Shown here piece after piece: positions 621 to 63,924 of a stretch of DNA of 64,000 bases. The number at the start of each line of letters is the position of its first letter. Within the stretch, counting starts at the first letter, position 1. The position numbers and the translations under genes were made by a program. Source of the stretch: Mimachlamys varia (taxonomy: Eukaryota > Mollusca > Bivalvia > Pectinida > Pectinidae). The stretch lies in contig OX392533.1 in the NCBI GenBank assembly GCA_947623455.1, forward strand, positions 32,610,229 through 32,674,228, given 5' to 3'. Below the pieces are notes generated by a model that was not told the DNA's origin, did no database searches, and saw only the letters and a program-made list of their open reading frames with translations.

Positions 621-1655
621 ATGTTACAAACGGTTAGCAAACTTATCGAATTAGACAATTTTGATGAAGGCGAAATTCGGCGAAAATCACTACCTAATGA
701 GCTACCAACTTTAAAACCGCTCATCTCGTTTAAAAGAAGAAATTTCTTTTCCTGGCAGCAAGGAAAGCTTGAGGAAAACCATGATGTTGTGAATCAATGG
801 TGCCTATTTTTACGGGGAAAAAAGGTTTCCGGGAAGAGGGTAAAAACATCATATATTTAGATGAAACATGGATAGACACTGCATATACTGCGCGCTCATG
901 CTGGCAAAGTGCTGATGAGGCAGGTGTAGTGGTCCATTTCAACAAAGGACATAGACTAATTGTTGTCAACGCAGGGGGAATACAGGGATTGTAAAAGGCG
1001 CGTTACTCATATACAAGGCAGCATCTGCATTTGGAGATTACCACAAAAAAATGAATGCGGCCAATTTTAAAAAGTGGTTAAAGGAAAACCTCTTGCCAAC
1101 GGAAACAGCGTCATAGTAATGGATAATGAATCTTATCACTCCGTACAGACAGAGAAATGCCCGTCATCGTGTACACGAAAAGCTGATATTCAAGCATGGT
1201 TTTCAAGGCATTACGTTGACTTTGACGAGTCCCTGAAAAGACCTGAATTACTACATATGGTAAAACTAAACAAACCTGCAGAAAAGTCGTACAGGACCAA
1301 CCAGATTTTGGCCGAGAGGGGACACGAGATTTTACGTTTACCACCGTATCATTGTGATTTAAATCAAATAGAACTGATTTGGGCGAATTTGAAATCAAAA
1401 GTTGTCAGACGAAATCTGTCGTACAAAATAAGTGATGATTTGAAACTTGTCAACGAGTCTGTGGATGAGATAAGAGTAACAGACTGGCAAAAGGCTGTGG
1501 AACATGTGATTAAACTAGAAATCGAGTACAGAACCAAAAATGCAATAATGGACAATGAAATAGAGCAGTTTATCATAAACCTACCAGATGATACTGACGA
1601 AATAACCGATTCCAGTGAGACAGATACAGCCAGCGAGGGTGACGACGACGACTAA
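621..1655 (+). pseudogene. Decayed DDE transposase (Tc1/mariner/IS630-like DDE_3 type)
   Basis: Relic of a cut-and-paste DNA transposase. The reading frame moves between three segments (621-860, 797-994, 1074-1655), so several frameshifts are present, near 820, 980 and 1100. The first segment has an N-terminal stretch with 'LIELDNFDEGEIRRK', which looks like the DNA-binding part. The second has the first catalytic Asp in 'IIYLDETW'. The third has the second Asp in 'VIVMDNESYH' and the acidic third position in 'PPYHCDLNQIELIW', so the D-D-E/D triad is still visible, followed by an acidic tail ending in a run of Asp. The C-terminal 193 residues are open. I did not find matching terminal inverted repeats around it. 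What is known: this motif order is that of DDE superfamily endonucleases. Inference: an inactive copy of an autonomous element; a domesticated protein is unlikely given the frameshifts. Confidence 0.8.
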
Positions 1656-14320: not shown

Positions 14321-15005
14321 TATATCTAGTTTTAACATTGTTGTTTATATATCCCTAAATGAATTAAGTTGTTGATGCGCTGTTGAACAACACAAAAACA
14401 AAATAAATTCAAATACATGTACCATGTAGTTAGCACTTTGAAACTAAAATAACAGTCTTAACACTTTAAATCATTTCTTGGAATGTAACCAAAAAATCTC
14501 AATTACAGTATCCATTATATTATGCATTGTGTTGTTCAAGTTGCAGACAGGGAAAGTGATATGTGTTTACATTTCAGTTGTAATCTGAAACTCGGATTTA
14601 CAATTATGTAAAATTATTCTAGATTGGATTGCAAGAAACATCTGCATTAATAAATATTCTTGACGTTTTGATCCAGAATTTTATCACACTGATCATTATT
14701 CATAGTAAATCAATACATGTACATACAAAGTATATATCAGAAACAACACATAAAATACATGATATAAACACTTTATCCAAGCCCAGCCAACACAGCCTAC
14801 TTATCAGCCACTCCACTTTCTATCACAGCCAAATCATAATACAGAAAACCCTGTGGGCACCTCATCAAAAGTTTGAGGAATACATGGTTTTCTAGTAATC
14901 TGAGGACTTGTTTGAAATGTATGAACTTGGTCCTGACCAAACAAACTGTTCGATGAATGAGGGGTGTTCGAGTAAACCGAGTTTGAGTGAGTGGCGTTTT
15001 ACTTA
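14321..15005. other. Intergenic, nothing recognised
   Basis: AT-rich. An 88-codon ORF at 14629-14895 has low-complexity composition and no recognisable domain. Confidence 0.4.
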
Positions 15006-15775
15006 TTATCCCCCTCCGACCCACTGACATTCCTCCTGCTACCCCCCATCCACCCACTGACATTCCTCCTGCTATCCCCCATCCACCCATTGACATTCCT
15101 CCTGCTATCCCCCTCCGACCCACTGACATTCCTCCTGCTACCCCCCATCCACCCACTGACATTCCTCCTGCTATCCCCCATCCACCCATTGACATTCCTC
15201 CTGCTATCCCCCTCCGACCCACTGACATTCCTCCTGCTACCCCCCATCCACCCACTGACATTCCTCATGCTATCCCCCATCCACCCATTGACATTCCTCC
15301 TGCTATCCCCCTCCGACCCACTGACATTCCTCCTGCTACCCCCCATCCACCCACTGACATTCCTCCTGCTATCCCCCATCCACCCACTGACATTCCTCCT
15401 GCTACCCCCATCCACCCACTGACATTCCTCCTGCTATCCCCCATCCACCCACTGACATTCCTCCTGCTACCCCCCATCCACCCACTGACATTCCTCCTGC
15501 TATCCCCCATCCACCCACTGACATTCCTCCTGCTATCCCCCATCCACCCACTGACATTCCTCCTGCTACCCCCCATCCACCCACTGACATTCCTCCTGCT
15601 ACCCCCCATCCACCCACTGACATTCCTCCTGCTATCCCCCATCCACCCACTGACACTCCCCCTGCTACCCCCCATCCACCCACTGACATTCCTCCTGCTA
15701 CCCCCAATCCGCCCACTGTCATTCCTCCTGCTATCCCCATCCACCCACTGACATTCCTCCTGCTATCCGCCACCA
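15006..15775 (+). repeat. Minisatellite, ~23 units of 33 bp with 99-bp higher order
   Basis: The unit is 'cactgacattcctcctgcta' followed by 'tcccccatccacc'. In the first part the variant 'cccctccgac' returns every 99 bp (15011, 15110, 15209, 15308), so three 33-bp units form a higher-order repeat. The later part is monomeric. Because 33 is a multiple of three, long open frames appear on both strands in several frames (up to 254 codons); these are products of the period, not genes. Confidence 0.95.
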
Positions 15776-16500
15776 ACCCACATTCCTACTATCCAAAAAT
15801 CACATCGCAAACTATTACTTTCCTGAATCTCCACAAACCCACTATTCACCCAACCCCCCCACAAACTTACAATTCCTCACCCCCAAATCTGCTAGCCCTA
15901 ACACCACATTTACGTCCACTTACCAATCCTCCATTACAAAACCCAATATCTCCCATACACCTCAACTACCTCCCCCCCCCCAAACACACACACCCCTATG
16001 TTCCTCCATCCTCCCTTTCACACATACATTGAATTAGAATATTTGCTAATAATACTGCAGTAATGAGGCTTTTAGTCAGTGTCTGATCCGTGCCGTCACA
16101 AAACACAGGTACACCAACATACCTCCGTCTCTAGCACACAACACACAGAGGCACCTATACCACATAAATGACCTGAACTGTTAATAAGACAAAATATTGT
16201 TAAGTACCAAATATTTCAATCAGGTTTCAAATTACTTTGGAGTGCATAATTCTTCAAAAGCTAGTTATAATAATATTGTACATGTATGTTTTGGCCTCTA
16301 ATGTCTAGCTGTGTAATTAAAATAAATGCTTAATGTGATAAAATGTGATCTAATGGTACTTTTTTTATGATTGATATAACATTTCTAATAGGTCATTTTG
16401 GCTCGACACATTTTATAAACTATCTATAATAGACAATTTGCCACTATGATCATGTCAGAATACTGGACTATAACTGCGACATCTAAAGATCCTTTTTGGG
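15776..16500. other. Intergenic, C-rich decaying edge of the minisatellite
   Basis: 15776-16020 is CA/C-rich with repeated 'cccac' and probably derives from the array. After 16030 the sequence is ordinary AT-rich DNA. Confidence 0.4.
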
Positions 16501-30299: not shown

Positions 30300-31840
30300 A
30301 AAAAAACTGTAATAAAATCTCATCGCTTCCTCCTATACTTCAGTGTAGGGAGATTTAACTTCTGTAAACGCTCTCTGTAGGATAGTTCCTTCAGACCTGG
30401 GACGAATTTTGTGGCTCTTCGTTGTACATTATCATGTTGATATCCTTCTGTGTGTAGGGGTTCCATGCACACGCCGCGTATTCCAAATGCGGTCTGACTA
30501 ATGCCTTGAACAGTTGTTTGAATATACATTTATTAATGTACATAAAAGTTCTTCTGATGATGCCCAGTACCGAATTTGCTTTATTAATAGCGTATGTACG
30601 TTCGGAAGTCCAATTTATCATCTACTGATATACCCTAAATCTTTTCCAATAAAATATGCTCTAATATGATTTGTTCTCTCTTTTGTCCTTTTAATTTATA
30701 TTCACGGTGGTTAGATCCTTTTATGTTGAGTACCTTAATTTTGTGGGGATGGAGTTTCAATAACCAATTATTCGACCACTTCTGAAGTTTATCTAAATCC
30801 GATTGCAGATAACGTATATCGTTGTCATCTCCGATTTTACGGTATACTTTTGTGTCATCTGCGAATAAAGGACAAGGCGATGTTGTGTTTTCTGGAATAT
30901 CGTTTATGTCCAGAACAAAAAGAATTGGCCCAAACACACTTCCTTGAGGAATTCCGCCGAGGACGTCGTTGGATTTCGATGTGGCTTCATTAACAGCAAC
31001 TCTTTGGTGTCTATTGTTCAGGAAATTTTCTATCCATATTACAGTTTTATGACTGATTCCATATTTATACAATTTATATATGAGGCGACGATGAGGTACC
31101 TTGTCAAAAGCCTTCATAAAGTCCATGGACATTACATCTATTTCTCCTCCTGTATCCAACATCTGTGTCCATTTGTACAGAACTGTTAACATTTGGAGTG
31201 TTGTTTATCTTCCAAGCAGGAACCCAAATTGATTTTCACTGAATAATTTAAGTTATTTCTTTGCACATGTTATACAATACCGTCTTGAATAAGTTTTTCC
31301 ATTGATTTAGCTATGATACTTGTGAGACTCACCGGGAGGTATTTTCCTGGGTCGGACTTCGGACCTTTTCGTAGATGGCTGTGAAGTTTGCGTCTCCAGG
31401 GATCTACTAAATACTAGCGATAGTGGCTTTTTCAAAACATCTCTCAGTCCCTTTAATGCTTTTGGTTGCATTTCGTCTGACCCGCATGATTTGTTACTGT
31501 TCGATTTCAGCAGAAGCTTCATAATATTTTCTTCGGTGCAAGATGTATCCTGGAATGGTTGACTAATGTAACTGTCCTCTGCTCGAAGTTTGGTATTTCG
31601 CCTGGTGGTTCTTTGGTGAAGACGCTAGCAAAGAAATTTACTAGCACATCTGCCTTCTCTGCATCACTTTAAGCAATTTGTGCAGTGTCTTTAAATCTGC
31701 GATTCCTGATCTATCTTTCCCTTTTTCATTAATATATTTCCAAAACCGCTATGGTTGGTGCTTAATTAACGCTGTAGCTATGTCCTTTTCCATGTCTTTC
31801 CTTGCCTTCCTCATTCCCCAGTGGACTTGATTGAACTGTA
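30300..31840 (-). pseudogene. LINE (non-LTR) reverse transcriptase remnant
   Basis: Minus-strand remains of a non-LTR retrotransposon ORF2. From the 5' side there are a decayed piece with 'FWKYINEKGKDRSGI', then 'SNKSCGSDEMQPKALKGL' (31307-31522), the palm with 'MSMDFMKAFDKVPHRRLI', 'GGIPQGSVFGPILF' and the catalytic 'PLFADDTKVY' (30635-31192), then C-terminal pieces 'ALVRPHLEYAACAWNPY' and 'RERLQKLNLPTLKYRR' in other frames (30320-30621). Frame changes and stops occur at least near 31640, 31270, 30630 and 30430. No endonuclease domain remains, so the copy is 5'-truncated. The motif style is that of the Jockey/CR1 group of animal LINEs; the exact clade is not resolved. Confidence 0.88.
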
Positions 31841-40943: not shown

Positions 40944-41513
40944 CAATCTCTTTAAAATACAGATCCTCACTATTACTATCGTGTGTAGGATCTGACAGCG
41001 ACCAGTAGAAGGTCATGTGCAGATGACCTTTATTATTTCATACTTGCCAACCCTCCTTATTTAGGAGGGAGACTCCCGATTTTGGACCCCAAAATGTTGC
41101 ATTTTCAACTTTTGAATTTGCTCAACTGTTCCTATTTTTAAATATCTGATGATTTCATCTGAAAGAAGAGCTCAAAAGAAACCATTTAAAAGTGTTATTT
41201 TTCCTCTGAATGTACATGTATACATATATGTATACAAATCAACAGATGATGTCTAAAAAGAACACACGCCTTGGCATAGAGACTGCTGAACTGGGTGCCG
41301 CCATTTTCATATATGGTTGTTCGGGTTTCCCGCTACTTTACTTTAGTTTAACGAGTGTAGAAAACAAATCAAAATTGGCTTTTCACTTTCAGAATCTGGT
41401 AAGCAGCGATTTAATTGGTGAATGCAAAGGTCATCTGCACATGACCTTCTACTGGTTGCTGTCAGATCCTACACACGATAGCAATTATGAGGATCTGTAT
41501 TTAAATCAGATTG
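40944..41513 (+). mobile_element. Mutator-like MITE, copy 4, long TIRs
   Basis: Flanked by perfect 9-bp repeats 'acactgaat' (40935-40943 and 41514-41522). The inverted ends agree for about 85-90 bp, including 'gtgtaggatctgacagc' and 'aaggtcatgtgcagatgacc'. The inside is largely another repeat (41041-41225). A 152-codon ORF at 41210-41668 crosses the right end and is not a gene. Confidence 0.85.
41041..41225 (+). mobile_element. 'cttgccaaccctcc' repeat, copy 1, nested
   Basis: 185 bp also present inverted at 49201-49384. Shared blocks are 'ggagggagactccc', 'aaaatgttgcattttcaact' and 'aagtgttatttttcctctga'. It sits inside Mutator-like copy 4. Confidence 0.75.
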
Positions 41514-42131: not shown

Positions 42132-42349
42132 TCAGGAGACCGGTACTCTTTGTAGGTTCGGTTTGAAGTGAAAGCGCTTTGTCAAAAGTGACGTAACAAG
42201 TGGAATTTCGGCAAACCTCTTGACCATTATTCCGTTGATTCTGGTCAAAAGCTTCAGAATGTCCATGTCTTCTCCGTTCAAAACATGCGTCTCGAATGCC
42301 TTTATCACAGCTGCGATATATGTAGAAGGTTTTTTCCGCTTCCAGGCCC
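42132..42349 (-). other. Pseudocaspase exon 5 (p10 end and stop)
   Basis: 218 nt after the acceptor TGTTAAATAG, ending TGA. Carries the p10 helix and 'LTRIN' strand and the C-terminal 'LLTKRFHFKPN', parallel to 'LTKELYFYH' of executioner caspases, with eight extra residues. Confidence 0.88.
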
Positions 42350-45300
42350 CTATTTAACAATAACAAATACCATGTATTACCGAGAGTATCTGGTTTAAAT
42401 TGTGTAATCTTTATAGCTGACTGAGGATTACTTTAAGTCTTTCACCCCTAAAATTTTAATATGACAAATACTGGTTCAGAAAATGATAAAATTTTCATAA
42501 TTCAAAGTCATCCAGTAAAAAAAAAAAAAGCGTCTGAAGCAATGACAGAGATAAATGCAACAGACATCAACTGATAGATATTCCGGTTATTTTCAATCTT
42601 CCGGAAATAACTGATGAAGGCTGAGTGTGACGTAACGTAATTGTGTGACGTTACGTAATTGTATGACATGTTTCCAGTTTCTCCACTGGAGGGATACTTT
42701 CAGACGAAAAAAAATCAAAGGCAATGGGTAGCAAGCAGAGGGAAAAAACTGTTGACGCACACATGTGTTAATATCTAAGGGCTTCGCTCGGGCGTCTTTA
42801 GCTGCCCATGAGCAGCGCTCTTATTGGGAACTTTTCCAAACATTCAGTTCAATTGTCTATATGGGACGAGTTATTATATAAAGTCAAAAGTATCTCGCCG
42901 TGTAAAACCTTAAACATGGTTGAGTAACTCTTAAACAAACTTTAGAATTTATTACAGGTGCTTCAAGCAGCCACTCTGTTGATTCAGGGAAAACAATTAT
43001 TCCAATTATTATAGTTATCATATATGCATAAGGTTATATGTATAGGCCATGGCGGCTTGCTTAAAAAGTTGCCGGTACGCTCGTCATAAAAAAAACTGTC
43101 TATGCGACGGAGAAATTATTGCTAGATGAAACAAAACTAGCATGTAGTGGTGCATCGTCGGAAACCCACGGTACACTGCTCTGGCGTTTGTGTCCCATAT
43201 ATGGGCTAAAACAATCGAAATACCTTGTTTCCCCGAATAGAAGTCTATTCGGAGATTTCGACCAATCAGAAAGGTTGTTTTATAGAGGCACTCGGCTAGA
43301 TCATTTTCCAATATGGTGTCTTCCAGTATAGAAGAGAGATTTAGCATCACCAGCTTTAAAGAGTTCCAGAAAAAAGCCATAGATGCGTTATTGAAGAAAA
43401 AAGACGTGTATCTTTCTGTTAAGACGATATGACTTGTTGTCCCTTATTTTGTTTAAACACAACCCACAAGTTTTCTTGGCAGGCGATGCCGTCGCCATAT
43501 TGGTTTGTTTTGCTACGTACGGGATATCCCAACCGGATGTTAGGCCATAGATGAAGGAAGCGATATGATTGGCTATTATTTTTAGTACGAAAACGACAGT
43601 TTCTTACCGTTTTAGCCCACGGGACACAAATGCCAGAGCAGTGTACCGTGGGTTTCTGACGATGGTAGTGGTGGATTAATATCTAAATTAATTGGAAATG
43701 TCGGTGTTCTGTCTAAAAATTGCACGACAGCCTCACAACAAGTAAGTTATGTGCATTGTAATTACAAATAGTTGAGAAATAACGTTGGAATACATGTACT
43801 TCCATTACATTCTGTAACATTGGGCCGCGGCTCCATTTATATATTAAAAAAAAATATATACTGACAGAAACTCAAGCAACTGTGGACAGACAGATGGACA
43901 GATGGCAGGTAAACTAATAGTCCCCCCCCCCCCCCCCCCCCCCCCGGCTTCACCGGTAGGGGTCTAAGAAATCCCCCCTCACCCCCGTTTATGTAGTGAC
44001 TGAAGTAACTACATAGAATCTCACCCTGGTCAGTTTCTGAAGAATAATGAGTGACAAAGTTACACTCTCGCGGAATTTTTCTGGTTTCAAGTTTGACAGT
44101 TGGTGCTGACTTTGGACCACCCTCTGACACATCTTCTTCCAAATAGTTGTTGTTGCCCTGGAATTACAATATATTTATTATATACTTACTATAAAATAAA
44201 GGGAAATTGTACACTGATTAAATACGTATGTTTCTAGTACATATCAGCTCACTGGGCCAAAATGGGCAATTCTTCTCTAAGTGGGCCGAATACACTGTAT
44301 CAACCCGCTTCCGAAATTGCCATGACGTCATATGATGTTTATGACGTTACGAAAATTAATAGGAGGACAGAGTCGACGTTGAAATTGGCGAAAAAGTTAT
44401 GGAGTCGATTGTATCAAGATTACTGGAGCTTGAAGAAAAAGAGACTTTGTTTTACCCAATATCGACCCTTTGGCCTTCTGCCCTCAGGCCGATATTGGAT
44501 CTCGGGTTGTTACAAGGCCTGATATGGAAATGGCCATATAATTTTCTCTATTTATTACATAACACAAGTCATTTACTGTGCAATTATTGAGGTGCAATAA
44601 AAACGATTTCTACCACAATACATGTAGGTGGGTGTTATTCAACTCAATGGGTATCAAATAATCATCACAAGTGTTGAATAATGCCTCTGCGTCAAACGCG
44701 CATATGACTAATTATTATCATTGGCGCCAATTTAATTCAAACTAAGCTGTTCCGCCAATGTCTTTTAAATGATGAAGCATATACAAACGTAGGTAATAAT
44801 CAAATTTTATTAGAAAAACTATCAATGCAATTAAGCGATAGTTCTATAGTAAAAATGTAAATACATGGATTGAAAGTATTTTTTCAACTTTCATAGTGCT
44901 ATGAAAGGTAAGCCGTTACATTCATATTTAACATGAAGCCCTAGGGGCCTTCATTCAATATGAATGTAACAGCTGACCTTTCATAGCACTATGAAAGATA
45001 AAAAAAATAACTTTCAATCCCTATATTTACATTTGTGTCAGTTCCTCTATATACATGTATTTAGGATATTTGAGCTATATTAACAATCATTTCAAAAGTC
45101 ATGTAAGCCCTGCAGGAACTCTCTGTCAACATCTGGGTTGAAACAATACAATATCTGGGTGGCGATGAAAACAAGTACTTTTTGATTTTAATCACACTGT
45201 GGGTCAAATTATTACAGAAGCTAGGTTTGAAATTCCCTTAACTTAAAGCTATAGAAGTTAGAAGATTGCAATGCTCATGTACAATTAAAACTTATAACTT

Positions 45301-48300
45301 ACCGGGTATCACACAATAAAGTACCATGCGAGACATAAAAAGAAAAATAATTGTGATTTAATTCAGTATTTCTTCTTTAAAAAGAAAATATTTTTATATA
45401 TCAGATAGGTTTAAGTCCCTAAATTATCATTTTCCAAACTTCAATTTTTATTGTTACCAGTTCAATTTGTAAGTTGACGGTACTTTGGATAAATGGCAAT
45501 TTTGGTATAACAGGACCTTGGCTCTTTGCGTACACAAACTGACAAACTTCCCATGTTGTTTTGACACATGTCTACCGTCAGGGTTGAATCTTTCAGTTGA
45601 TTTTACACAAGAAAGGCATTTTGAGTGCTAAAAACTATCTAATACTTCTCTAACAATTTACAAGATATTACAAATCATTCCGAAAATCTCCGAAAAATAA
45701 ATGATACATAATCGCAACCAAGTCAAGATTTTTTATTGTTCTTGCATAAAGTGCGCACTCCGTTCTTGACACTTTCGATTTTCCCTAAAAAAATGTGCAC
45801 TATGCGCAAAAATTACGGTAGTAGTTTTAGTGTTTTGTAAATTGGACCCTTAATAAATTTTATGTGTTTCAATAGAACAGGTAAACTTTACCATGATGAA
45901 ATAGATCTTTGGTTTGGTAGCCAAACTCTTGCAATTGTTTCCGGTAAATGGTGCTTGGATGTCTTTCAGTTCGCACCGTTCATCAGGTTGGCCGGATGCT
46001 CCAGGACAGATAATAATCCCAGGCTCGCCAAAGGACATGATTACACATAGAAAACAACCATAGTCTGTGTAGTCTTCCCCAGCAGCTGAAAGTACAAACA
46101 TAAAATAGCAGGTTCTCTATTAAAACAATATTACATGATATTGTGACTTATGAAATTTAATTAATACATGAATTCTTAATGATGTTTATTGATTATTTAT
46201 CTTTATCATACTGAAGCCTTGTCCTTTAAAATGAAGACTATGAACAATCTTTCTTCCACCTCCCCTAACTTCCTTCTTTTCATCCCTTCGGTCACTCTGA
46301 ATTGCAATGCTGTGTGGGGAGGGGAGGGTGGGTGGGTGGGTGTGTTGATAATTTTTCAAGACATTCTAGTCACCCAAGATACATGCAGTTCATCATGTTT
46401 ATATTTTAGTATCCAATGCAATGAAATTAAGTGAACACGTATTTTAACCAAATTAACAGCAGTCGTGACTTCAGATAAATTAGACTTGCATATTAGGTCA
46501 GTGGAAAAATAAAGACTACAATATACAAGAGGCCAAAAAGGCCTGAATCACTCACCTGCTATTGATCTCACACTTTTAATCTTTAATAACCACAACACAG
46601 ATACAAAATATCAGAGTCTGAGATCAAAACAAGAGGCTCAACAGGCCTTAACGTCTTAACTCATTTAAACAAACTGTTGGTAGCCCTTCATTTAGGCATG
46701 CTACAGGCCAAATATCAATAACCTTGGCATTTCGGGTATTGAGAAGAAGTTTCTTAAACATATTTACAAATTTGACCCCTGTGACCTTAAAAGTGGGTCA
46801 AGGCCATTCATTCTACCAAATTTGTTAGGCTTTCCGGTTATCGAGAAATTTAGGTTGCAGAGAGGGGTAGAATTGAACTTCTTTAGCATTTTGTGGCGAG
46901 CGGGTTAACTTTTATCTCGCCAAATTGGAAATTCGCTTGCAATTTCAGAGTGAATAATGAAAGCACTGTGATGCATTCTGAATCAGTCTAATTTACAATT
47001 TAGACAAGTGTCAACAAGACATCGCACTATTTATGCTTGTGAATGTGGTTTCTTTTCAAATTCGTTTCATACTTTCGACGACGTTTTCTGACATGTGTAC
47101 TGATTGGAATAATATATACACTTTTCATTAGGCATCATACCAACTAATATCAGTACCCTGAGTCTTTAATTGGGTTATTGAGAGGAAGTTGCTTAAAGAT
47201 TTAAAGACATTTGTTTCCCTGTGACCTTGAAAGTGAGTCAAGGTCATTCATTTGAACGAATGTAGTAGTCCTGGCATGATCCAAGCATGATATAGACTCA
47301 AAATCAGTACCCTGGGCCTAAAAGTTATTGAGTTGTTTGTGAATTGTTGATGACGGACACCGCACCATCGCAAAAGCTCATGATCTACTTGCCCTTTAGG
47401 CACATGATATGAAAATTGATTAGTAATCATATTTACCTTTTCCTATTTCAACTTTTAGTTGAGATTTCGTCAAGTTATGGCGTATTTTAATGTCATCTTC
47501 GGCAAATTTTAAATTCATCAGCAGGTTCTTAACTTTGTCTACATCAATGTGAGAGCCTTCACGTAATTCACCACCTTTTTTGGACCGTTCACCTGTAAAT
47601 TTGTCATTGTTTACTATCAAGGCTCTTCCTACAAACCGGAAATCAGGGTACTTGTCTCCTTCAAACTGTCCTCTTGTCAGTTCAGGAGTCTGTTCACTGA
47701 AAAAGAAATGACTGCAAATATGATTTCTACAGGGAGGTTCAAATTTGGGAAAACTTCTATAGACTTACATCATGCACATCTCACCAATCTCGTTTGAATA
47801 ATTTAACACAATGAAATAAATCTTGTCATTATAAAATCCGTTTCAAATAATTTTCATCCAACTGGCTTGAATAATTCAACACAATGAAATAAATCTTGTC
47901 AAATAATTTAGCACAATGAAATCCCACCCATCAGGTTTGAATAATTTATCACAATGAAATCTCATCTATCTAGTTTGAATAATTCAAAACAATGAAATCT
48001 CATCTATCTGGTTTGAATAATTGAACACAATAGAACAGTGTTTTGTGTTAATTAAGTACAAAGTTTAAAGCACCCTGTTCCTTCAGGATTTTTGAGAATG
48101 TACAGTAGCAATATTATTGTCAAAACGGATGAGAAATTCCTCATCTTTTTCTTCATCTTTGAAAAATCATGAACTTTTTTTGCTGAGGTAAGCAGCAAGT
48201 TCTCTGCTGTACAACTTAGCAAAGAATAGTCACTGTTAGTAAAATATCTTTTAAATAACATCACCTTGTTTCCCATATCTTTTATATTAGATTGTCACAC

Positions 48301-50002
48301 ATACTGTGGAGTATTACATATAGCTTAAACTCATTAGGTCCTAAAACAGAATTTCACATACATGTAACATCCTTACCCATTTTCCCTTTAAAGCATTTAG
48401 GAGGAATTAATTGAAGGCTTCAGATTTGGAGATCTAAAATTTATCATTTTCACTTTGTTAACTAACTTTGAAAAAACCAAACATGTATTTTAGGATCTTG
48501 TGATTTCCGATGAAAGTAAAAGTTCTAAAGATGGTATCCTAAAATGTTAGTTTTACCTAAATACCCGTTATGTAAATGTAGCACCTTTCACATCAGATAA
48601 CTATTTTTTTTATTTTGAGGACATAAAATCTCCATAGAAATTTCAATCTTAGGTTTATTAATTGCAAGTATGATTTCAATATGTAGCTTTCCAATTTATA
48701 AAGTAACATCCTCATACAATACAGTGTTTCCGAGATACCGTCTCTCTCTGGGTTTAAACAGGTTTTAGATACACATGATTGGGGGGAGGCGGGGGGGGGG
48801 GGGGGGGGGGGGCATGTGCACTCCCAGTGTACTGCACTGCCAAAGCATCAGTAGCAAAAAACAATATGCAAAAAGAGCGGCTGTTCCCAGATGTCATCAT
48901 AGGCATGTCTATCTACATGGTATACATGTATGTACCTGTCAGTAGAACTCTGACTGGTCTAAAATATAAACGTTTAAGTAGTTAAAGGTTTTAACAGATT
49001 TGACCTATGCGACCTTGAATATTGGTCCAGGTCATTTCATTTTGCAAACTTTGTCAGGATTCATCCAAAAAAACCTTTCAGCCAAATATCATACTTCAAT
49101 GCTTTTTGATAAATCAGGCTCCATCCAAGACACACTTGCCAACTTTTTGAATTTTTCATGGGGATATTACGTGTGCTCAGAATTGAAAACATAAATAATA
49201 TGTATACAAGTACATTCAGAGGAAAAATAACACTTTTAAATGGCTTCTTTTGAGCTCTTCTTTCAGATGAAATAATTAGATGTTTAAAAACAGGAACAGT
49301 TAAGCAAACTCCAAAGTTGAAAATGCAACATTTTAGGGTCCAAAATAGGGAGTCTCCCTCCTAAATAGGGAGGGTTGGCAAGTATGCCAAGAAAATTGCA
49401 CCCAAATATCATGCTTTTAGGCCTTTTGGTTAATCAGAAGAAGTTGTTTAAATGGAAAAGTTGACGCCGGGTGAACGACGGACGCTGCGCAACGACATCT
49501 GCATGTAAGCTCACTTAGCTAATAACTGTAATGAAACTCCTCTGATCAGGTAGTCAGTTGGTAAGAATAAATGTATTACAAATTACAGAGTTTTCTATTG
49601 AAATATTTCGCTAAAACCCGAAATAACAACGTTGGAAGAGGAAAGAAGTGAATTACTGTCACAAAATTGGTGGCAGCGGTGGGAGAATTTGAAGTATAGT
49701 TCATTGTAATATGTTGATGTAATTTGTAACTGTGAAACACGGATTGTATTTCAAAATTGTGAAAAGACCCTTGAGCAAGAATTTAGAAAAATGGCAATTG
49801 CAAAAAGTGGGAGATCTCGACATCAGTGTTAACTATAATAGTGCCAACAAATGTACATGTGGATGTTACGGCCTGCATGAGAAAGTTTCAAATGTTTGGA
49901 ACTAATAAAACATGCAATGTGATAATGAAATAATGTTTAGTCCCACTATCTATTCACATACCTTCGTCCAGCAATGCCAGAACCATCAGTTCCATCTGAC
50001 AT
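42132..50002 (-). CDS. Caspase-3/7-like pseudocaspase lacking catalytic His and Cys
   Basis: Five coding exons: 50002-49962, 47696-47437, 46085-45892, 44157-44025, 42349-42132. Phases join without frameshift into 281 residues with a very short prodomain and no DED or CARD. The p20 part has 'YPDFRFVGRALIVNN', the Arg-containing 'REGSHIDVDKVKNLL' and 'GCFLCVIMSFGEPGIII', where family members have S-H-G-E: the catalytic His is Phe. 'LATKPKIYFIM' then joins directly to 'GNNNYLEEDV', where caspases have 'FIQACRG', so Ala-Cys-Arg, including the nucleophile, are missing. The p10 part has 'IPRECNFVTHYSS', then 'AWKRKKPSTYI' in place of SWRN..GSWF, 'ILKLLTRINGIMVKRF' and 'IPLVTSLLTKRFHF'. All splice sites fit consensus. 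Known: caspases need this His/Cys pair. Inference: an inactive regulator or decoy of active caspases. A 9-nt micro-exon restoring ACR is not excluded but would not restore His. Confidence 0.9.
43153..43664. mobile_element. CATCGTC MITE, copy 2, in caspase intron 4
   Basis: 512 bp with 44-bp inverted ends that differ at two positions, starting 'catcgtcggaaacccacggt' and ending 'gtgggtttctgacgatg'. Flanked by the 9-bp direct repeat 'gtagtggtg' (43144-43152 and 43665-43673). Same family as 22576-22938. Confidence 0.88.
43921..43945. repeat. Poly-C tract in caspase intron 4
   Basis: About 25 consecutive C residues. On the minus strand it is a long G run, 80 bases downstream of the exon 4 donor. 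Confidence 0.9.
44025..44157 (-). other. Pseudocaspase exon 4 (linker and p10 start)
   Basis: 133 nt after the acceptor TGTAATTCCAG. First codon GGC (Gly of QACRG). A TAA lies in frame a few codons upstream of the acceptor, so the exon cannot start earlier and supply a Cys. The linker has 'YLEEDV', a plausible caspase-type cleavage sequence. Donor CAGG|GTGAGA. Confidence 0.88.
44158..44852. other. Caspase intron 3, near part
   Basis: Contains a mirrored 'ccaatatcgaccctttggcc' / 'ggccgatattgg' pair at about 44457-44500 and a plus-strand 86-codon ORF (44262-44522) with no recognisable domain, which I do not treat as a gene. Confidence 0.4.
44853..45034. mobile_element. Fold-back MITE, ~85-bp arms, in caspase intron 3
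   Basis: 'aaatgtaaatacatggattg' mirrors 'caatccctatatttacattt', 'actttcatagtgctatgaaa' mirrors 'tttcatagcactatgaaag', and 'gttacattcatat' mirrors 'atatgaatgtaac'. The centre is 'ccctaggggcc'. A near-perfect hairpin of ~180 bp. Confidence 0.85.
45892..46085 (-). other. Pseudocaspase exon 3 (p20, His site lost)
   Basis: 194 nt after the acceptor GTACTTTCAG. The codon at the catalytic His position is TTT in 'tcctttggcgag' (minus strand), two base changes away from a His codon. Ends with ATG at the donor ATG|GTAAAG, exactly where the QACRG block should start. Confidence 0.9.
46515..47400. repeat. Decayed 'aacaagaggc' repeats in caspase intron 2
   Basis: Two starts 'caagaggccaaaaaggcct' (46528) and 'aacaagaggctcaacaggcc' (46629) are followed by unit-like sequence ('tttgacccctgtgacctt', 'gagaagaagtttcttaaa') that matches the inverted 145-bp units of 53550-55210. 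Another repeat lies at 46862-47100. Confidence 0.6.
46862..47100. repeat. 'ggggtagaatt' repeat, copy 1
   Basis: Matches 63330-63620 in inverted orientation: 'tagaattgaac', 'ctcgccaaatt.gaaa', 'aatgaaagcactgtgatgca' and 'ctgaatcagtct' are shared. It interrupts the decayed 145-bp unit repeat. Confidence 0.65.
47437..47696 (-). other. Pseudocaspase exon 2 (p20, first half)
   Basis: 260 nt after the acceptor TTTCTTTTTCAG. Holds the 'RALIVNN' strand and the Arg of the S1-pocket region in 'LREGSHIDVD', both as in active caspases. Ends at AAAAG|GTAAAT. Confidence 0.9.
47790..48030. repeat. Degenerate ~42-bp tandem repeat in caspase intron 1
   Basis: About six units of 'ttgaataattcaacacaatg' followed by 'aaatctcatctatctgg'. 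It begins about 95 bp upstream of exon 2 in transcript sense. Confidence 0.8.
48791..48812. repeat. Poly-G tract in caspase intron 1
   Basis: About 22 G residues preceded by 'ggggggaggc'. A Gly run in an ORF here is not coding. Confidence 0.9.
48985..49520. repeat. Inverted piece of the 145-bp-unit element, with nested insert
   Basis: 'gcgaccttgaatattggtcc', 'gcaaactttgtcaggattca' and 'gccaaatatcat' match the units at 53700-55100 in reverse. The end 'gacggacgctgcgcaacgac' plus 'gtaagctcactta' is the mirrored left end of that element. It is broken by 49201-49384. Confidence 0.7.
49201..49384 (-). mobile_element. 'cttgccaaccctcc' repeat, copy 2, nested
   Basis: Inverted copy of 41041-41225 with ends 'tatacaagtacattcagagg' and 'gggagggttggcaagtatg'. 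Sequence of the host repeat continues on both sides. Confidence 0.75.
49962..50002 (-). other. Pseudocaspase exon 1 (start)
   Basis: Codes 'MSDGTDGSGIAGR' and two bases of the next codon, ending at the donor AAG|GTATGT. Context before the ATG is 'actgcaag'. Upstream on the minus strand lies a possible acceptor ('tttaataggacag', in the minisatellite), so a further 5' UTR exon is possible. Confidence 0.8.
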
Positions 50003-61184: not shown

Positions 61185-63924
61185 GTTGGTTCTCATTGGG
61201 ACTTGTAATAATCAATGGACATGAAATATTCACAGTATTGTATTTGGAGGGAAGAGCGAAAGGTGAGGGGTTGGAGTTACAGAGTACATATATAGTGATA
61301 ACTCCTCTTAAACTACATAGAAACTTTGAACCAAATTGTTGTGATACAAATGTAGCGGCCTTTAACTCATTCACGCCTGAAGTTTCATAATGAACTATTC
61401 CAACCTTTGATTTGGAAGAGTTCAAATGTGTCTTCAGGGGTGAATGAGTTAAGGAATCAAGAATTACAAAAACAAAATGAATGAGACTTTATAATGCTCT
61501 AATAGATCCCCTCTAGAACTACATGTACTTACCGGGAAGGTAATTTTACCTTTATTTCCAAAATAGTCAAATGAGCCATAAATTTAGGGACTTGAGCCTC
61601 TTGTTTAGATTTAGAAATATCACCAAACTTCCTTGGCACCAAATATTAGGAAACGTTTTACTTATGATGACCATTACTATGGTTACTACAGGGGCTGAGT
61701 TTCCTGGAGATGAAGTACCAGACGTTACTGAGCTACCTCATCAACCTTACCTACGTCCTCTTACAGAAGTCTAGGGGTCGGTCGATACAGGCAGACCCTG
61801 CCATCTTCAGACTCACTGAGATACGCACGGTTTGTAAAGAGTCCCATCGATTGGTCAATATACACTGTACACACAAAATACATGACAGTGCAACCAAACC
61901 TCATTATCTACAAACACTTATAACTCAAAAAACCTGTTTAATTTAAAGGCCCAATATACGTAACTTTAGAGAAATTTTTCGTAATTCTGAAAAATTCTGA
62001 AAAAAAATCAAGTTGATAACCATGCAAAAATAAGCCAAAAACGAAGTAAACCTAAGCAGTACCTAACAAGAAACTCTTGCCAAAAAAATCCAAAAAATTG
62101 AAAATAATTCAGGTGGAGTCAACAACAAACCGAAGGTAGAAGACAGTTCGAAATGGACGCGTGTTTACAAATAGCATGTTTCAGCTGCTGCTGTACCAGT
62201 AACCGCGAAAGATTTCATCTTGAATATTGCTGATATCAGTTAATCTTAACTAAATCTATAAATATGATAAGTAATTAGGCTTTATTTTCGCTTCAAGTTT
62301 TGCCGAAAGTTGCGTATATTGGGCCTTTAATTGGTCCGGACCAAACTTTACACTAAACATTCAGTCACAATAAACTTGAAAACCTGGATAACTCAAAGTT
62401 TTCCCACGGTCCTGTTAGCTTTGTGATAACAAGGGTTGATCATATCTATTTATATAACTGTACATGTAGTTATGTTGCTATTTGCTTGAGTTCATTTAAT
62501 GCATAATAAAGAACACTGTTTATCAAATAGTGGTCTAACATATAATAACTGATGCAATTTGATTTAAGATTTTCTAGTTTTTGCTACGTTTTTATATCAA
62601 ATTAAAAACCTTGAGCTCCTGGCTTGTACATGTACAGCGCATCATTTTCTCTGAAGATTTATGTTTTAATCTGAAATTTGGTGCGAAACCCCCCCCATAT
62701 TATTTCATGTTTTGAATATTACTTCCATTGCAATATGGAATGCTCTTTGTTATTTACAATAATTAGAATATTTCATGACCACAGGTCCTGGAGAAGCTGC
62801 GTCCTATTGACCAGAAACTGAAATACCAGATTGATAAGCTCATCAGGACAGCTGTAACAGGGGATACCGGTGAGTTGAACTTTGATGACCCTCAAATTTT
62901 AATGGACTTTATTTTTTTGCTTATTTCTACCAATTGTTTGATGTTGTTTCTCAAGCTTTGGTTATGCCTTTTTTTCCAAAAAAGATCCAAATCTTCAATT
63001 TATGCTATATTTTCACAGTACTGGAAGGCTTATGTAAAATAAAAATAACAAAAACAAAAAATTTAGATTTGTAACAGGGAAGACAAATTGCACAGCTAGA
63101 CCATGGTTCGAACCCAGGACCTTCCAAACTCTAGATGGATGCTCTACTGATAAAGCTCTCAAATCGTTGACGATCAACCAAGTTCAGCTTCTCTTCTTGT
63201 CATTGCATGTTGATATCTGTAGATAAACAGATATTTAGTGGAAGTAAATTAAAAAGTAGGATTTTCTATTTTGATTGGTCATTATCAAAATGAGCTATTG
63301 TTATTCGACCTTATATCATTACATGTCAGGGTTTGAATTTAACACTCGCGCTCACGCTAAATGCGAGTTGATTTCTGAAATTGCAAGTGGAAAATTTTTG
63401 TACTTGCTTTTTTCGGCGAGTGGGTATAATGACTGTTGAAAGGTGTATATGATGTATATATATATATATATGAAAATAAGACTGATTCAGAATGCATCCT
63501 ATAGTGCTTTCATTATCAACTTCAAAATTGCGAGCAAGTTTCTAATTTGGCGAGTTAAAATTTAACCCACCTGCACAGAGTTCGAGTTGCTAGAAAGTTA
63601 AATTCTACCCCTGCATGTGTATATAACACTTATATCGTATAATAGAAATAACTGATAAAAAGGACACTAGCTGAGATAAAAAGGACACTAGCTGACGGCC
63701 CGAATTGTGTGGGTACCAATTTGTACCACTATAGATGGCCAGAACTGACCAGTATCATTGCTGAATTGTTACTCATCAGAGCTAGGCACTAAGTAGTGCA
63801 GTATTTATTACACTGATGTATTTTTTATGTTTCCATTGTGAAAGCCTAATAATCAGACATTTTGTTGACAGGTTCCACTGATCCACTGAGATTTAAGGCC
63901 AATCCAGACAACATGATTAACAAG
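61062..63924 (+). CDS. NGDN: Neuroguidin (Sas10/Utp3/C1D family), N-terminal part, runs off the window
   Basis: Four coding exons: 61062-61184, 61692-61829, 62785-62869, 63872-63924, giving the first 133 residues (human NGDN is about 315). The start is 'ATGG' after 'atcgcc', a strong context. Exon 1 is helical and acidic. Exon 2 has 'GLSFLEMKYQTLLSYL', where vertebrate NGDN has 'GLSFLEVK'. Exon 3 has 'VLEKLRPIDQKLKYQIDKL', nearly identical to NGDN. Exon 4 has 'DPLRFKANPDNM'. Splice phases agree (0, 0, 1, 0) and all introns are GT-AG. The last exon ends at AAG|GTAATG, so the C-terminal basic half lies beyond 64000. Known: NGDN is a nucleolar and cytoplasmic protein of the small-subunit processome family that also binds eIF4E. 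Role here is inferred by orthology. Confidence 0.93.
61363..61452. mobile_element. 90-bp hairpin MITE in NGDN intron 1
   Basis: 'ttaactcattcacgcctgaag' mirrors 'cttcaggggtgaatgagttaa', and the inner parts are partly mirrored ('gaactattcca' / 'tggaagagttc'). The outermost bases form TTAA on each side. A relative is at 34958-35034. Confidence 0.75.
61692..61829 (+). other. NGDN: NGDN exon 2
   Basis: 46 codons after the acceptor TACTACAG, ending 'LTEIRT' at ACG|GTTTGT. Core of the Sas10/C1D helical domain. Confidence 0.9.
61947..62326 (+). mobile_element. TTAA MITE, copy E, in NGDN intron 2
   Basis: 380 bp, TTAA at 61943-61946 and 62327-62330. It lacks about a dozen bases present in other copies after 'aattcaggtgg' (the 'gcccacttca' part). 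Confidence 0.87.
62785..62869 (+). other. NGDN: NGDN exon 3
   Basis: 85 nt after the acceptor GACCACAG, ending CCG|GTGAGT. The most conserved segment of the family ('RPIDQKLKYQIDKL'). Confidence 0.93.
63060..63182 (-). mobile_element. tRNA-headed SINE in NGDN intron 3
   Basis: Minus strand: 'agctttatcagtagagcatc' (A box), 'ctgggttcgaaccatggtct' (B box). The 3' side runs into 'gtcttccctgttacaaatct'. Distinct head from the other two SINE types here. Confidence 0.7.
63330..63620. repeat. 'ggggtagaatt' repeat, copy 2, in NGDN intron 3
   Basis: Inverted relative to 46862-47100. The ends 'cagggtttgaatttaac' and 'gttaaattctacccctg' are roughly mirrored, so it is probably a TIR element of about 290 bp. 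Contains a (ta)n run at 63458-63472. Confidence 0.7.
63872..63924 (+). other. NGDN: NGDN exon 4
   Basis: 53 nt after the acceptor TTGACAG, 'GSTDPLRFKANPDNMINK', donor AAG|GTAATG. Confidence 0.88.

Follow-up and report, generated by a model that had tools for sequence, protein, structure and literature searches.

What could a caspase gene still do once it has retained its reading frame and its fold, but neither of the two residues of the catalytic dyad? The question is raised by a gene on the minus strand of a 64,000-nucleotide stretch of DNA from the bivalve Mimachlamys varia (contig OX392533.1, positions 32,610,229 to 32,674,228), which we call the window. The gene spans about 7.9 kb (42132-50002) and has five exons, which join with matching phases to 846 nt, that is 281 codons and a TGA, with no internal stop; all four introns begin with GT and end with AG. 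The product matches the caspase domain PF00656 over residues 37-269 (E 3e-29), which identifies a caspase fold (Peptidase C14) with p20 and p10 parts. At E values up to 1 the Pfam scan of the protein returned this family only, with no death-fold domain and no death effector domain (DED), and 36 residues precede the caspase domain. Among solved structures, those of caspase-7 and caspase-3 come closest in sequence. Together with the short prodomain this points to kinship with the executioner (caspase-3/7) type, a placement made with no initiator caspase in our tree, and it agrees with the short N-terminus and caspase-3/7 affinity claimed in a preliminary description of the locus. A tblastn search with 13 proteins (the window protein and 12 homologues, E up to 0.01) detected no other caspase copy within the 64-kb window, the matches being confined to the span of the gene.

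The gene encodes a caspase fold from which both catalytic residues are absent, as the preliminary description had proposed. Where active caspases have a catalytic His and Cys, Ser-His-Gly-Glu has become Ser-Phe-Gly-Glu, with Phe119 at the His position, and the QACRG block reads FIM-GNNN across the junction of exons 3 and 4, without Ala-Cys-Arg. Reading on past the exon 3 donor gives VKFTCSIETHKIY (13 residues) and then a stop. The in-frame codons directly before exon 4 are TAA TTC CAG, so that the TAA reported just upstream of the exon 4 acceptor is indeed there. A hidden micro-exon in intron 3 that restores the active site, for which a check had been suggested, was rejected. Among single phase-0 pieces of 6-60 nt bounded by AG and GT, none has R, G or Q directly after a Cys at its first or second codon, and no homologue in the scallop-type alignment has a Cys block of the kind that such an exon would supply. 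Seventeen pieces carry Cys at any position, and two of these end in SSCRAYMTFEMI.

Substrate binding and processing are affected as well. The pocket for a P1 Asp, formed by two Arg and a Gln, is incomplete in the scallop-type proteins (seven aligned rows, window included): the first Arg is kept in 7/7 rows, Gln is replaced by Met or Val in 7/7, and the second Arg is replaced by Lys, Ser or Asn in the 6/6 rows that cover it. No Asp in the intersubunit linker is common to all seven rows, and a shared executioner cleavage site is thus missing; D174 is present in five of the seven, and the linker could be cleaved in some species.

The same dead state is found in every close homologue. A search of 5.8 billion proteins, restricted to relatives sharing short words (787 candidates), returned six matches, five of them from named scallop species, and all six carry both catalytic changes. 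Identity to the window protein in the alignment is 73% for Mizuhopecten yessoensis, 69% for Azumapecten farreri, 61% for Ylistrum balloti, 60% for Argopecten irradians, 57% for Pecten maximus (P0005, p10 part incomplete) and 49% for P0006. All seven rows read SFGE, six read FIM and one FIV (P0006), each followed by G. Because 6/6 homologues carry both changes, recent decay or chance is very unlikely. The 286 residues of P0006 form a complete protein, encoded on a contig of 1386 nt; given the much longer span of the window gene, this contig probably derives from spliced RNA. In the Pecten model, named 'caspase-8-like', the p10 part breaks off behind TDQG, where the window gene has its intron 4; the isoform may retain that intron, or the annotation may be wrong. 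A scan of five homologues against NCBIfam returned 0 families, as expected of a prokaryote-oriented library.

Constraint was judged from the conservation pattern and from a neutral stop-codon simulation. Pairwise identity among the full-length scallop-type proteins (six, without P0005) averages 0.89 for residues 111-130, 0.63 for 131-143, 0.73 for 144-158, 0.82 for 159-170 and 0.91 for residues 259-272, which form b8, the strand of the caspase dimer interface. By the same measure residues 1-36 (0.38), residues 61-110 (0.42) and the linker (0.41) are less conserved. The best-conserved segment of 60 residues starts at residue 111 and scores 0.78, compared with a maximum of 0.756 in 10,000 shuffles. 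This segment (residues 111-170) covers what was once the active-site core, so that the core is conserved, but in altered form. When the window coding sequence was allowed to drift neutrally to 73% identity, a mean of 3.9 stops arose, and the frame stayed stop-free in 1.4% of 2000 runs; databases favour intact proteins, and uneven conservation is therefore the stronger argument. With its open frame, its homologues in the dead state and its uneven conservation, the gene shows neither the disabling changes nor the relaxed constraint of a pseudogene. The earlier suggestion of selection on the fold, not decay, is borne out, and the predicted fold of the M. yessoensis homologue is an intact caspase fold.

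A search for orthologues in other bivalves had been suggested, and the dead state does extend beyond the scallop type. Profile searches with the scallop-type set gave 12 proteins (E up to 1e-5), and searches with three oyster-type proteins and P0006 gave 40 (E up to 1e-3). They add proteins from Magallana, Crassostrea, Ostrea and Saccostrea and two from the ark clam Tegillarca granosa, and also bring in nine His-bearing caspases that are more distantly related (P0011, P0012 and P0038-P0044). Named proteins from mussels, clams or snails are absent among the matches, which, given the restriction to proteins sharing words, is no proof of absence. The family alignment comprises 37 rows (P0007 counted as two halves, fragments included, some rows assigned to type by sequence grouping), 35 of which cover the His position, and is accompanied by 10 His-bearing comparison rows. 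His is absent in 35/35 covered family rows. Its place is taken by Phe in the scallop type (7/7), by Tyr (23), Phe (2) or Cys (1) in the oyster type (n=26) and by Tyr in both ark-clam rows; all 10 comparison rows keep His and a Cys. At the Cys block, QLE or QLD is found without deletion in all 21 oyster-type rows joined there, while five others run into an apparent intron (QVSA, QVGL) and two fragments end earlier. Judged by eye, these read-through models place the intron right after Q, which is the place of intron 3 in the window gene.

Replacement residues are shared across the family. Eight residues past the lost His, Cys127 is Cys in 35/35 covered family rows; the comparison rows have Gly, Ala, Pro or Ser there (10/10), and Cys is found in 0/14 of the His-bearing rows in the tree set. 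Arg195, within KIPRE, is Arg in 7/7 scallop-type and 19/21 covered oyster-type rows, Val in both ark-clam rows and Arg in 0/10 comparison rows. Thirteen positions are invariant in the family, with no His among them; His231 and His270 occur in 6/7 scallop-type rows, the exception being the incomplete P0005, and are not family-wide. In these alignments the dead state is a family trait of the scallop-type, oyster-type and ark-clam relatives. One model from Magallana gigas (P0007, 493 amino acids) contains two dead caspase domains and represents either a fusion gene or merged neighbours.

The core and the dimer strands of the family are approximately as close to human caspase-7 as those of active caspases, and the substrate loops are less so. 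In the window protein the substrate loops L2 and L4 are either degraded or absent; most of L4 is missing in the scallop type, and the oyster type lacks L3 instead. Strand b8 is intact, which, at the sequence level, is what a regulator acting by dimerisation would need. The top Foldseek rows for the M. yessoensis model were often inhibited or zymogen caspase-7. We did not read this as such a state of the model, since it lacks the loops that are disordered in those structures. c-FLIP was absent among the 50 structure matches listed, and the 14 viral fold matches at E up to 0.001, most of them named caspases of insect and giant viruses with 8-18% identity, were uninformative. Oyster-type members keep KIPRE, the helices and b8 with L3 missing, and a motif scan could overlook their p10 part; some of the oyster caspases described as having p20 only may be cases of this kind.

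The age of the dead state was addressed with a tree of 43 rows and 247 columns, comprising 7 scallop-type, 20 oyster-type, 2 ark-clam and 14 His-bearing sequences. The last of these were the nine from the searches and five PDB segments, and included neither an active bivalve caspase nor an initiator caspase; the seven fragment rows (P0029-P0032, P0034, P0036, P0037) were excluded, as was the first half of P0007. One branch parts the 29 family rows from the 14 His-bearing caspases with support 100/99. Removal of the His and Cys regions (203 columns) gave the same split at 98/93, with a program warning that the bootstrap had not settled. The branches leading to the comparison rows P0011, P0012 and P0042 are very long, and the tree does not settle how the three bivalve lines branch relative to one another. 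We tentatively suggest, at somewhat less than even odds, that one loss of His before the divergence of scallops, oysters and ark clams founded an executioner-type pseudocaspase family. This family would have gained Cys127 (and KIPRE in scallops and oysters). Scallops and oysters would then each have lost the Cys block and the substrate loops independently, and selection would have maintained the family ever since as a mollusc counterpart of c-FLIP with an independent, executioner-side origin.

As to present function, we give a probability of about 0.5 to the following reading: the window gene encodes an executioner-type pseudocaspase of a bivalve family, which has lost proteolysis, has kept the fold and the dimer strand, and most likely restrains an active executioner. 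The protein would remain a single uncleaved chain, and its b8 strand would pair it with the procaspase of an active executioner. A normal sister subunit supports the loops of its partner, which this protein, with its different linker and L2, could not do, so that the partner would most likely be restrained and the threshold for cell death raised. Both the partner and the direction of effect are what we infer from these features. For the decoy that pairs with an active caspase-3/7, as put forward in the preliminary description, the conserved dimer strand is the one feature that speaks.

Several points weigh against this account of origin and function. The claim of a single ancient loss suffers most from the composition of the tree set, which includes no active bivalve caspase. 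Vogeler et al. report one His-bearing member of the oyster caspase-3/7-like group (PMC7836458). Tyr for His is also found in Cg3A, which belongs to another oyster caspase group (PMC7836458), and the change may thus recur, which weakens the claim further. In the ark clam, one row reads QGCPY at the Cys block, where a Cys may remain, and the other reads into an intron; L3 and L4 both keep their length. Likeness to caspase-7 in helices a4-a5 is 0.28 in the scallop and 0.29 in the oyster type compared with 0.41 in active caspases, and in b2-a2 it is 0.17 in scallops compared with 0.30. The conserved Arg59 of the P1 pocket is unexplained by a pure loss of substrate binding. Finally, conservation of b8 fits homodimers equally well, and the identity of the partner, with no active bivalve caspase for comparison, is a guess.

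The protein might instead have left caspase regulation behind and use its former active-site face and Cys127 to bind another partner, for instance in immune signalling. The most strongly conserved parts do include the former His-Cys core with its replacements (Phe119 7/7, FI[MV]G 7/7, Cys127 35/35), but b8 keeps an active-caspase-like sequence that is compatible with caspase pairing too, and we regard this explanation as unlikely, although it deserves serious attention. It is improbable that the protein acts as a heterodimer partner that aids procaspase activation and shifts the substrate range, without blocking; here the argument is an analogy with vertebrate FLIP(L) and caspase-8 (PMC7586951). 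A different enzyme, with a new active centre around Cys127 in place of the old dyad, would account for a Cys present in every covered family row and in 0/10 active ones, but the absence of a family-wide His makes it very improbable. A recently dead pseudogene or annotation artefact, a view that could draw on the two missing residues and on two C. farreri caspase-3/6/7-like genes reported to be silent through development (PMC8878197; not matched to the window gene), is equally improbable in view of the open frame, the consensus splice sites, the homologues in the same state, the strongly uneven conservation, the rarity of stop-free neutral runs (with the database bias mentioned) and the P0006 contig, which suggests spliced RNA.

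The positions of these features and of the neighbouring ones are collected in Table 1. The Pfam scan of the surroundings covered 10 of the 59 open reading frames of at least 85 residues. A 189-nt inverted repeat, 94% complementary, lies at 41039-41227, downstream of the caspase gene, and at 49198-49386, in its intron 1, and is probably a mobile-element pair. At about 14800-16030, frames recur in the list of open reading frames (HPPTDIPPAIPHPP on the plus strand, SRRNVSGWMG on the minus strand), and the region looks like a tandem repeat.

Table 1. Features of the pseudocaspase gene and its surroundings, in window coordinates.
Feature	Positions	Strand	Remarks
Exon 1	49962..50002	-	residues 1-13 and two bases; short N-terminus
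Exon 2	47437..47696	-	first half of p20-like part; carries Arg59
Arg59 codon	47561-47563	-	counterpart of one P1-pocket Arg; kept in 7/7 scallop-type rows
Exon 3	45892..46085	-	former catalytic core; donor directly after FIM; holds start (residue 111) of best-conserved 60-residue segment
Phe119 codon	46030..46032	-	replaces catalytic His; F in 7/7 scallop-type rows
Cys127 codon	46006..46008	-	family-wide Cys
Met165 codon	45892-45894	-	last codon of exon 3
Intron 3	44158..45891	-	1734 nt; at expected place of QACRG block
In-frame TAA	44164..44166	-	upstream of exon 4 acceptor
Exon 4	44025..44157	-	begins GNNN; linker; KIPREC opens p10-like part
Gly166 codon	44155-44157	-	first codon of exon 4
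Exon 5	42132..42349	-	completes p10-like part, with stop codon; most of loop L4 absent
Strand b8, residues 259-272	42162..42203	-	caspase dimer-interface strand; mean pairwise identity 0.91, 6 scallop-type proteins
Transposase-like DDE_3 piece	1071-1652	+	PF13358, E 2e-9
SLC52 riboflavin transporter family frame, 466 residues	23431-24828	-	PF06237, E 2.1e-140
Reverse transcriptase piece, retroelement remnant	30638-31204	-	PF00078, E 7.2e-20
Exon-like piece, Sas10/Utp3/C1D family protein	61671-61943	+	PF04000, E 2.4e-11

Dead caspases are already known in bivalves. Several lack His and Cys and have possibly lost catalysis (Vogeler et al. 2021, PMC7836458), and dyad changes have been named in 3 and 8 genes of Mytilus coruscus (PMC10967218). 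Caspases number 30 in Chlamys farreri and 40 in C. gigas (Wei et al. 2022, PMC8878197), and in many of those of C. farreri QACxG lacks Ala, Cys or Gly (PMC8878197). According to PMC7836458, no FLIP homologue has been identified in bivalves. Among the open-access papers listed, screened by title and start of abstract, we found no paper on a dead caspase family common to scallops, oysters and ark clams. As far as these listings go, our additions are the cross-bivalve family, its conserved substitutions and its selective loss of loops. Vogeler et al. raise the question of whether other bivalves share the new caspase groups of oysters or whether these are restricted to oysters (PMC7836458). Our oyster-type rows are possibly their Cg3/7-like group (Cg3/7-like A-H); the window protein groups with dead caspases of Magallana and Crassostrea. 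If the two are the same, a dead family common to scallops, oysters and an ark clam answers their question. If our reading of its function is true, the family is a candidate brake on the large bivalve set of death proteases and shows that executioner caspases can yield a long-lived pseudoenzyme. In addition, measuring the expression of 'caspase-7-like' entries may not tell how much protease capacity there is.

The closest counterparts of the window gene are the scallop database entries from M. yessoensis, A. farreri (G0T523), Y. balloti and A. irradians ('caspase-7-like' or 'caspase') and from P. maximus. All five share SFGE and FIMG with it, but they are named as active caspases, the names give no sign of the dead state, and the Pecten model is incomplete. 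The oyster-type caspase-7-like proteins (P0007-P0010, P0013-P0028) have likewise lost His and Cys and have kept b8, KIPRE (19/21 covered) and the equivalent of Cys127; they differ in that His is mostly replaced by Tyr, the Cys block is QLE or QLD without deletion, and L3, not L4, is missing. Two further bivalve proteins could be compared by description only. Caspase-2 of Mytilus galloprovincialis (Mg2-like) has neither catalytic residue (PMC7836458) and has been proposed as a non-proteolytic, CLARP-like regulator (PMC3037946), but is described as caspase-2 kin. Cg3A of Crassostrea gigas shares Tyr for His, but retains the Cys, within QSCRG, and has been grouped close to vertebrate caspase-3/7 (PMC7836458). 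The nematode protein CSP-3, which the preliminary description had cited as a regulator parallel, is also a caspase homologue without an active site, but it is a CED-3 paralogue, and its anti-apoptotic role is disputed and could not be replicated by the authors of PMC3591282. Vertebrate c-FLIP(L) resembles the window protein in its caspase fold, in the loss of both catalytic residues and in having been kept in evolution. It is, however, a caspase-8 paralogue with DEDs, in which His has changed to Arg and Cys to Tyr (PMC7586951), whereas the window protein has no DED, is of executioner kin, and has lost its dyad to a Phe and a deletion.

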